NCBI RefSeq assembly: GCF_000186345.1
Contig: NC_014962.1
Location: 1,674,001-1,738,000, forward strand
Source: Isosphaera pallida ATCC 43644
Lineage (GTDB): Bacteria; Planctomycetota; Planctomycetia; Isosphaerales; Isosphaeraceae
Direction: 5' to 3'
DNA: 64,000 bases
Of the stretch, positions 44,609-48,211 are shown one piece after another. The notes beneath the pieces are model-generated. The model ran no database searches and had not been told where the DNA came from. It was given only the letters and a program-made list of their open reading frames with translations. Within the stretch, counting starts at the first letter, position 1; the number at the start of each line of letters is the position of its first letter. The position numbers were made by a program, and so were the translations under genes.

Positions 44609-44769
44609 GGGTGTCCTCAATTGGATTGCGTAACGGATTGAGTCAACGCATCATGGATCGAACGCAACGCGAGTTCAACGGGGGTTGAACCTGCTCGCTC
44701 CCTCCCAACCCGAGGCGCAGCCGGGTGTCGCCCCCACGACCAGGCACTCCGGCGGCGAGGGGATCGCTC

Positions 44770-47448
44770 ATGGCGGGCCAGGACAACATGGGATCGTTCA
44801 CCACTTTGATCAGCTGTCCAAGCTGTGGTTTGATCCAACGCCCGCCCCAAGCGTCCGACTCCCACCCGGCCGCTGGGCTGGCCTCGACTAATGAGCCACT
44901 TCCCCCGCCCCACAACCGGCGCGGGGCTCAAGGCCCACAAAGACGCTCCCCCAAGCCCCGCCGCTCGCCTCCCACGCGACGGCCGCGTTGCGCTCGTTGC
45001 GGGAGTCGGATTGGACCGCGACGGGCCTCGAGCGACAATTTTCCCGCGGCGATGCTGTCGCTGGCGGGTTTGATCATGTTTCCCTGGGCGATCGGGTTGC
45101 CATTCCTCCGAATCGAGCAACTCGGCTCCTCGAGCGAAAACTCGTTGCTGGGAGGAATCTGGAAATTGCTGACCAGCGGCGATGAATTCGTTGGACTGGT
45201 TGTTCTGCTGTTCTCGCTCGTGCTGCCACCCTTGAAACTCCTGGTGTTCCTAGCGCTAAGTTGGCGACCGGGGCGGCTCTCGCCCCGCCTGCGGAGTCTG
45301 TGCCATCGGGGGGTTGAACTGGCAGGTCGTTGGGGGATGTTGGATGTGTTGTTCGTAGCGGTGTTGCTCGCGTTCGTTAAGCTCGGCCACTTGGTCAGCT
45401 TCGAGGCGGGGTTCGGACTGATTGCCTTCGGCTTGTTCGTCGTCTTGAGCTTGGCAGTGGGTCTGGTCTTTGATCCTCATGGTCTCTGGGAGACGCCCTG
45501 GATGCCTCTTTCACCCCAGCGCGATGAACCCTCCCCGTCGGCCGCGACGGACTTGCGATCCAAGCCCTCGCCCCCTGCGGCCCCGGCAAGCGACAGCTCA
45601 TCTTTGTTTAACGTGAGAACCGCGGCCGCGACGCCCGCGACACCGTTGGGTGTCGCGGCTCCAGACACCGGCCAGGTCAAGCCAGCGCCCGCCCCCTCGG
45701 CGGACCACCAGGCGGAAGCGTGGCCCTATGCCTTGACCGATGGTCAATGGCGTCAACGTCAGCGGTGGCAAACCGCCCGTCCCTCAGTTTGGCGCTGGTT
45801 GTGGAGCCTGGCCCCCTTGGGGGTGACGCTTCTGATTGTCGCGTGGCTGATCTGGGCTCCCCCCCAAGGCGTCCTGGTGACGATCCGTTTTAGTCAAGGT
45901 CATGGAATTAAGCCCGGTGACCCCCTGATGCATCGAGGCATCGAAGCGGGCCGGGTCGAGAAGGTGGCGCTGGCCGACGATTTGACTGGGGTGAGGGTTG
46001 AGGTACGGCTTTCTCCCGAAGCCAACGACCTGGCTCGGGCGGGAAGTCAATTTTGGGTGGTCCGCCCTCAGTTGGACATCAACGGGGTGGCCGGTCTGGA
46101 GACCCTGCTGGGGTCCAAGCACATTTCGGTGCTGCCGGGACCGGCCGACGCTCCCCGAGCGCGGGAGTTCGTGGGACGAGACGACCCGCCACCCCTGGAC
46201 CTTCAGGAACCCGGCGGGCTCGAAATCGTGCTTCAAGCTCCCGCCTCCGCCGGGTTGCGTCCAGGTACCCCGGTGGAATACCGCGATCTGCGAATCGGCT
46301 CGGTGGTCTCGGTGAACCTAGCCTCCGATGGCGGGGCGGTGGAAGCGCGCGTTTACATCCGGCCGAATCATGTGGGGTTGATCCGAACTAACACCCGATT
46401 TTGGAGGAGCGGAGGAATCAGGGCCAGCGGGGGCTTGAGCGGCTTGACTCTAGAGGTTCCTCCACTCGACCGGTTGTTGACCGCGGGCATCGAGGCGGCG
46501 GTTCCCGACCCTCCCGGTCCCTTAGTGCGCCCCGGACGGCGTTTTGTTCTTGAGGACGCCCCCCCCGAGAACGCTCGGACTTGGCGTCCCGTCCTGTCCG
46601 AACCGATTTTTCCCACGACCCCGAACTTTCCCACGACCAATCCGCCCAGTTGGGCCGCGGGGACGGCCCCCCGTGTCATTTCCGCTGCCCTGTCCTGGAA
46701 CGAGTCGGTGGTGTTGGGAATGGGGTCGCGGTCTCGAGACCGTTTAGGGTTGGTCATCGTGGTGCCCGGTGGTCTGCTGGGCCCCCTGGACCTGCTCGGT
46801 CCCCCAACCTGGGCCAAAGGAGGCGCAGCCGCCTTGCGTCTGGCCGAGCCGTTGATCCCCGGCCAAACTCCCCCCGCCCCTGACCTGACCGATTCACCTT
46901 GGCTAATGGGTCCGTTGCTGGCGGTTCGACGACTTCCTTCGATGGAAGCACCACCCCCGGCGAATTCCCATTCATCTTCTCACAACTCGACCACCTCTTT
47001 GGCGTCCGGGTCTCCCGATCATACTCAAACCGGGTCGGTGGCGTCCCAGTCTGGCTCCCCTGCCAATTTCTCTCAGCTTCCCCACGCCTGGCCACTCGAA
47101 CGATGCCGACGACCAGGCGAACCCGAAGACTGCTGGGTGGTCGGAACCGCTGATCAACCGGCCCGCTTCCTGGCCGCGGCTCGATTGAGCTCCACCCCCG
47201 AACCGGATCGCTGGCGGATTGACCCCGCCCTTTCGCCTGAAGCATTCCCTCACGGCGCGGCGGTTCTCGCTGTGTCCGACGGTCGCTTGCTCGGAGTGGT
47301 GGTCCGGCCCCCCAAAGAATCGGTCGCCTGGGTCGCTTGGATCGATCCCGCCGTACTGAGTCAGTCCGCCGAAGCCTCGACCTCGTCCCCGCCTCCGGTT
47401 GATCGAGTCTCCGAGTCAATCACATCCACATCCAGTCGAAGTCCCTAA
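44770..47448 (+). CDS. PqiA-like membrane domain fused to PqiB-like MCE domains
   Basis: An 892-residue protein joining two usually separate parts. Residues 1-90 have two CxxC motifs (C16/C19 in CPSC, C74/C77 in CARC), as in the zinc ribbons of PqiA. Residues about 93-240 are a PqiA-type membrane domain. A Pro/Ala-rich linker leads to a helix at about 350-370 and two MCE domains at about 372-470 and 481-560, which bind phospholipid-like cargo (QGVLVTIRFSQGHGIKPGD and EIVLQAPASAGLRPGTP). In E. coli PqiA and PqiB are separate proteins and move lipids between membranes. The rest is low-complexity, with a small globular tail. ATG 44770 (GAGGGG upstream) or 44788 may be the start. Confidence 0.8.
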   Translation: MAGQDNMGSFTTLISCPSCGLIQRPPQASDSHPAAGLASTNEPLPPPHNRRGAQGPQRRSPKPRRSPPTRRPRCARCGSRIGPRRASSDNFPAAMLSLAGLIMFPWAIGLPFLRIEQLGSSSENSLLGGIWKLLTSGDEFVGLVVLLFSLVLPPLKLLVFLALSWRPGRLSPRLRSLCHRGVELAGRWGMLDVLFVAVLLAFVKLGHLVSFEAGFGLIAFGLFVVLSLAVGLVFDPHGLWETPWMPLSPQRDEPSPSAATDLRSKPSPPAAPASDSSSLFNVRTAAATPATPLGVAAPDTGQVKPAPAPSADHQAEAWPYALTDGQWRQRQRWQTARPSVWRWLWSLAPLGVTLLIVAWLIWAPPQGVLVTIRFSQGHGIKPGDPLMHRGIEAGRVEKVALADDLTGVRVEVRLSPEANDLARAGSQFWVVRPQLDINGVAGLETLLGSKHISVLPGPADAPRAREFVGRDDPPPLDLQEPGGLEIVLQAPASAGLRPGTPVEYRDLRIGSVVSVNLASDGGAVEARVYIRPNHVGLIRTNTRFWRSGGIRASGGLSGLTLEVPPLDRLLTAGIEAAVPDPPGPLVRPGRRFVLEDAPPENARTWRPVLSEPIFPTTPNFPTTNPPSWAAGTAPRVISAALSWNESVVLGMGSRSRDRLGLVIVVPGGLLGPLDLLGPPTWAKGGAAALRLAEPLIPGQTPPAPDLTDSPWLMGPLLAVRRLPSMEAPPPANSHSSSHNSTTSLASGSPDHTQTGSVASQSGSPANFSQLPHAWPLERCRRPGEPEDCWVVGTADQPARFLAAARLSSTPEPDRWRIDPALSPEAFPHGAAVLAVSDGRLLGVVVRPPKESVAWVAWIDPAVLSQSAEASTSSPPPVDRVSESITSTSSRSP

Positions 47449-47887: not shown

Positions 47888-48211
47888 ATGCCCCTGTTCG
47901 AGGTGGAAACGACTTCACACATCATGATCGCGTCGGCTGACGACGAGAAAGCCGCGCGTGAATTCGCCGCCACAAACTACCCCACCGAAGAGATTATCCG
48001 CGTCACCCATCGTCCCCGAGACGCCTGGGTGATCTCCAAAAACCTGCTGGGGATCGTCGGCACGATTGATGTGTGCGCCACCGCTCGGGAATGTCTGGCT
48101 CAGGCCAAGGGCGACAAGCTGCACGCCGTGCGTCTTTACATGAATCATACCGGGTCCGACCTGGAACAAGCCCGCAAGGTCATCGAATCCAACATGGCGA
48201 TGGGCTGGTGA
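47888..48211 (+). CDS. unrecognised 107-residue protein
   Basis: A 107-residue protein that I do not recognise. It has a clear ribosome-binding site (GGGGGTGAG) just before the ATG, and a balanced codon-like composition, supporting that it is real. The sequence alternates strand and helix: VETTSHIMIASADDEKAARE, then a WVISKNLLGIVGTIDV segment and a charged helix LEQARKVIESNMAMGW. No signal peptide or membrane segment. It could be a small alpha/beta cytoplasmic protein. glgC begins about 390 bp downstream on the same strand. Confidence 0.75.
   Translation: MPLFEVETTSHIMIASADDEKAAREFAATNYPTEEIIRVTHRPRDAWVISKNLLGIVGTIDVCATARECLAQAKGDKLHAVRLYMNHTGSDLEQARKVIESNMAMGW

Follow-up and report, generated by a model that had tools for sequence, protein, structure and literature searches.

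The window analysed here spans positions 1,674,001 to 1,738,000 of contig NC_014962.1 of Isosphaera pallida ATCC 43644, 64,000 nucleotides in all. It carries on its forward strand an uninterrupted reading frame of 892 codons plus stop, in which a zinc ribbon, one four-helix unit of the PqiA type, a linker, a transmembrane (TM) helix, two MCE domains and a long C-terminal region follow one another (Table 1). Three in-frame starts are available (GTG at 44725, ATG at 44770 and ATG at 44788) and the choice among them is uncertain; sequence conservation of the protein begins near residue 13. Upstream lies a divergent hydrolase gene, while the nearest co-directional downstream neighbour is at least 440 bp away. 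A DUF6793 gene (47888–48211, Pfam E 1.1e-55) lies downstream of the fusion, with a glgC-like gene next. No neighbour is shared among the fused loci described below, as judged from frames inspected by eye, the family scan having covered the window's neighbours. The host genome comprises 5,529,304 bp in two contigs, and a search of the whole 5.53 Mb returned the PqiA unit of this gene as its sole one; besides the fused gene, the genome encodes two MCE proteins, and an MlaF-like ABC gene lies immediately upstream of one of them.

The original prediction, that PqiA-like and PqiB-like (MCE) parts share one 892-residue chain, is borne out by Pfam and PDB matches that fall on the expected parts. A poor match to PqiA had been named as one way in which it could fail; residues 94–241 match Pfam PF04403 (PqiA) with 127.5 bits (E 5.4e-37, cut-off 23.8), the PqiA part matches LetA/YebS in a PDB sequence search (E 1.2e-27), and a Foldseek search with the full-chain model recovers LetA (9n8w_A, E 1.6e-7). 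The helices of the unit occupy residues 91–109, 139–165, 172–204 and 215–233 in the model. The zinc ribbon, likewise anticipated, has both of its CxxC pairs (C16/C19 and C74/C77), which are invariant across 16 aligned PqiA units. The models for two-unit PqiA proteins are matched far below their thresholds (TIGR00155, 88.6 bits versus 260.35; PRK15103, 83.2 versus 562). Between its CxxC pairs the I. pallida ribbon holds a Pro/Arg-rich, low-confidence insert of ~40 residues (44857–44973) that its relatives lack. Short PqiA-like proteins (L007, L008 and similar weak matches) cover only profile positions ~30–147, apparently without a zinc ribbon.

The full-chain model, built on 59 sequences, contains the ribbon, four TM helices, linker, TM helix, MCE1, MCE2 and a C-terminal beta domain, with a mean pLDDT of 74 and a pTM of 0.52, because of which the relative positions of its domains are unreliable. 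As in the PqiB/LetB family, the TM helix is followed by MCE domains in tandem, and the two that had been claimed are present, with Pfam, PDB matches and model in agreement: Pfam MlaD/MCE matches two stretches (96 bits, E 1.6e-27), the PDB sequence search finds LetB/YebT (E 5.8e-82) and PqiB (E 1.2e-32), and Foldseek finds LetB (E 7e-22) as well as PqiB. The NCBIfam PqiB model matches residues 347–580, although the PqiB equivalog scores 157.6 bits versus 525. Two MCE domains were found in the protein, rather than the three of PqiB or the seven of LetB, and in the full-chain model no long C-terminal helix of the PqiB needle type follows MCE2.

Table 1. Features of the fused gene, with positions counted from the first nucleotide of the window.
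Feature	Position	Strand	Evidence
Fused PqiA–MCE gene with predicted pseudoprotease part	44770..47448	+	Open frame, Pfam, PDB sequence search
Cytoplasmic zinc ribbon, residues 13–80 (C16, C19, C74, C77)	44806..45009	+	Alignment, structure model
PqiA four-helix membrane unit, residues 91–240	45040..45489	+	Pfam PF04403, LetA/YebS match, model, Foldseek
Disordered Pro/Ala-rich linker, residues 241–336, predicted cytoplasmic	45490..45777	+	pLDDT
Single TM helix, residues 339–362, anchor of the MCE part	45784..45855	+	Model
MCE domain 1, residues 367–457	45868..46140	+	Pfam, PDB sequence search, model, Foldseek
MCE domain 2, residues 483–577	46216..46500	+	PDB sequence search, model, Foldseek
Predicted C-terminal PA-clan (chymotrypsin-like) domain, residues 635–860	46672..47349	+	Model, fold matches

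Fused loci and split gene pairs in planctomycetes

A survey of planctomycetes, as proposed with the original prediction, found ten further distinct loci with PqiA and MCE in one frame, verified with profiles built in this analysis; the I. pallida protein as a single query retrieved no relative, and an alignment of planctomycete MCE parts did. The complete architecture, C-terminal domain included, recurs in L063 (the same locus as L038, from Planctomyces sp. ACE_PLA29), L039, L088, L108, L110 (the same as L171), L166 and L167. The remaining loci, L168, L169 and L170 (in G736, G653 and G659), encode an even more compact one-chain form, fused PqiA–MCE proteins of ~510 aa in which nothing follows MCE2 and the C-terminal domain is lacking. 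Frames of 620–682 aa in two other genomes (G404 and G418) resembled fusions in length and proved to be PqiA genes extended upstream by long open frames. A PqiA match occurs in 80 of 392 genomes searched in the phylum and in 66 of 397 in the class, and in none of the 24 same-family genomes searched; among 40 relatives searched, a comparable long PqiA frame was found only in G038, which belongs to another family. Presence in one family member only may reflect transfer, or loss elsewhere.

Most planctomycete genomes with PqiA have split pairs (L040–L055 and L058–L137), the direct homologues of the fusion, in which a single-unit PqiA gene (~200–220 aa) is followed by a neighbouring MCE gene with two or three MCE domains. 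The domain order is common to split and fused forms, and most split MCE proteins end in the same C-terminal domain as the I. pallida protein, but in the pairs the stop of one gene overlaps the start of the next, where the window has a single gene. With start codons picked by inspection, 12 of 14 pairs overlap by 4 nt (NTGA) between PqiA stop and MCE start, and the other two by 8 and 26 nt. At a junction of this kind a small indel would be enough to bring both genes into one frame, which is probably how the fusion arose. PqiA with a single unit is thus usual in planctomycetes, and the fusion represents a pair joined in frame, within the planctomycete branch of PqiAB/LetAB systems; the lone PqiA unit that the original prediction singled out is indeed single in both chain and genome, but it is no oddity.

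A tree built on the PqiA and MCE columns groups nine of the fused rows, the I. pallida protein among them, in one supported clade (99), in which no other member exceeds 51% identity to that protein; L108 and L110 stand apart from this clade. A constraint that put six fused rows in a single clade was mildly rejected (p-AU 0.043), which makes two separate origins of the fusion likely, though not certain.

The split MCE proteins vary in their own right. Some (L053, L045, L071, L074, L093 and others) have an extra MCE domain before the usual two and the same C-terminal domain, and others (L041, L043, L047 and L050) carry two MCE domains in ~300 aa and lack the C-terminal domain. One pair (L070), on a contig titled Alphaproteobacteria, is almost identical to those of Phycisphaerae and probably represents a misplaced contig in a metagenome bin.

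A proposed single-chain transporter and its stoichiometry

By analogy with LetAB and PqiAB, the models for a hexameric inner-membrane MCE pore and for the role of PqiA (PMC5561183, PMC10897342), the fused protein is most likely a lipid transporter. We assign a probability of roughly 0.7 to the full account, a single-chain LetAB/PqiAB-type lipid transporter with a hexameric tunnel, a PA-fold collar and a 1:1 ratio of its halves. Six chains, a number taken from the MCE family, would join via their MCE domains to build two rings, one stacked on the other, that enclose a hydrophobic pore; the PqiA unit or units would put lipid in or take it out at the inner membrane; and at the distal mouth, where PqiB has its needle and LetB its further rings, six C-terminal domains would form a collar for docking or gating. 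The covalent fusion would set PqiA:MCE at 1:1, which in a hexamer amounts to six PqiA units per tunnel. This specific arrangement, with each chain bringing its own PqiA unit and six pseudoproteases at the distal mouth, we advance tentatively and at somewhat less than even odds.

An ordinary LetAB-like ratio, with one or two PqiA per six MCE, would be restored if the chain were cut in its linker or if free MCE chains arose by internal initiation. The linker, whose length differs among the fused homologues, is predicted to be disordered and hence cuttable (residues 250–323 have pLDDT under 50 in the full-chain model), and in-frame start codons occur in the linkers of the I. pallida gene and most other fused genes, L166 and L167 among them, including an ATG at residue 196 of L166 that lies near the expected mce start. 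Most of these codons, however, lack a good Shine–Dalgarno-like sequence, and the linker of L039 contains no in-frame ATG, GTG or TTG before the TM helix, so that internal initiation cannot yield a TM-anchored MCE chain there. Furthermore, retention of the fusion across a clade as diverged as the one described above suggests that the covalent link is tolerated or useful, and we consider separation of the two halves unlikely.

The single-chain transporter would probably not make a complete bridge across the envelope by itself. The simplified bridge of the original prediction stands in so far as the transporter parts are in one chain, but two MCE rings without a needle look too short to span the periplasm. 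The proposed check for a pqiC-like gene came back empty, with no PqiC (PF03886) match in a Pfam search of the genome in which controls were positive, and the same kind of search found neither MlaA nor MlaC, although a diverged partner would escape either search. Given two rings, no needle and no detected PqiC, MlaC or MlaA, a complete bridge by itself is unlikely, and we infer that the C-terminal crown may dock another partner.

A C-terminal domain predicted to be protease-shaped

The C-terminal region, to which the original prediction could give no function, is now placed by modelling in the PA clan, apparently with its triad lost. Residues 600–866 modelled alone on 63 sequences gave a mean pLDDT of 76.9 and a pTM of 0.74, with a core mostly above 90 and a low-confidence insert at ~695–763. 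The top Foldseek rows for this model are all PA-clan proteases (E from 1.5e-4), VIA-align superimposes it on TEV protease (1lvm_A) with Z 15.2 over 183 residues and rmsd 3.8, and the profile of the region alone matches a TEV-like protease (E 6e-4); Pfam offered no family and nothing consistent for the domain. These matches point to a predicted chymotrypsin-like double beta-barrel fold.

No His-Asp-Ser/Cys triad was found in this domain. In a profile alignment read by eye, the nucleophile slot holds His828, beside a conserved Gly and aligned to the mutated nucleophile of the TEV-like entry, and the catalytic-Asp slot is mostly Gly; a motif alignment puts Asp674 in the catalytic-His slot, so that all three assignments come from alignments and none from coordinates. 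At the nucleophile slot, 48 of the 63 sequences have His, 2 have Ser and none has Cys. With the triad slots replaced, the domain is predicted from its sequence to be catalytically dead, a protease in shape only. It might instead be active in another way, binding a metal or ligand at Asp674/His828 or acting as an unusual hydrolase: Asp and His co-occur at the catalytic-His and nucleophile slots in 40 of the 63 sequences, and there is a precedent in MamO, described as a repurposed trypsin-like protein that binds metal (PMC4794232). Yet the make-up of the nucleophile and Asp slots speaks against activity, the Asp/His pair is missing from the fused L063, and the absence of the entire domain from L168–L170 means that it is dispensable in some lineages; we regard such an activity as quite improbable and retain the catalytically dead domain as the better reading.

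Reality of the fusion and its relation to known systems

We discard the view that two separate genes look fused here through an assembly or frameshift error, the former of which was also foreseen in the original prediction: although no other searched genome of the family has PqiA, the ten other distinct fused loci come from independent assemblies, which rules out an assembly join, two of them (L039 and L166) from single-contig genomes (G140 and G494), and the fused linkers are long and variable yet stop-free.

Among known systems, LetAB (YebS–YebT) of Escherichia coli provides the best sequence and fold matches and, like the fusion, combines a zinc-ribbon PqiA-type membrane protein with an MCE tunnel. 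It differs in having two chains, two PqiA units in LetA and no PA-fold tail, where the fusion has one chain and one unit, and LetB has seven MCE domains (PMC5561183). The PDB entries 9n8w and 9n8x together contain 2 LetA and 12 LetB chains, a ratio of 1:6, so that one LetA per six LetB contrasts with the six PqiA units that a fused hexamer would carry. E. coli PqiABC also shares with the fusion a PqiA unit and PqiB-type MCE domains, but PqiB, ~230 Å long, comprises a coiled-coil needle besides three MCE domains, and PqiC is octameric (PMC10897342), whereas the fusion has two MCE domains and no needle, and no PqiC was found in the genome. The Mla-Pqi chimeric system Mpc of Brucella, likewise a mixed MCE system found in diderms, is a chimera in operon composition (Mla-like parts with a PqiC-like lipoprotein) and has no PqiA–MCE fusion (PMC12436622). 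The PA-clan proteases, such as TEV protease, HtrA/Deg and picornaviral 3C, share the predicted fold of the C-terminal domain, but in the fusion the triad positions are replaced and the domain belongs to a putative lipid-transport protein.

Least expected were the 1:1 ratio that the fusion imposes and the tail with its resemblance to a pseudoprotease. No description of such a ratio, of a PqiA–MCE fusion or of an MCE protein with a protease-like tail was found in the open literature covered, although the fusion may be listed among the supplementary architectures of PMC5561183. If the proposed account is true, six PqiA per tunnel and a pseudoprotease crown would be a stoichiometry and a tip new relative to LetAB, PqiABC and Mla. 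A natural one-chain version that fixes the PqiA:MCE ratio would offer a single-gene target for reconstitution and cryo-EM, and bears on how, and in what numbers, PqiA/LetA proteins pass lipid to the MCE tunnel. The putative pseudoprotease tail suggests that MCE tunnels can end distally in more ways than with a needle or additional rings. Planctomycetes, in which the lipid traffic of the envelope has received little study, would have a short type of tunnel without the known outer-membrane partners.
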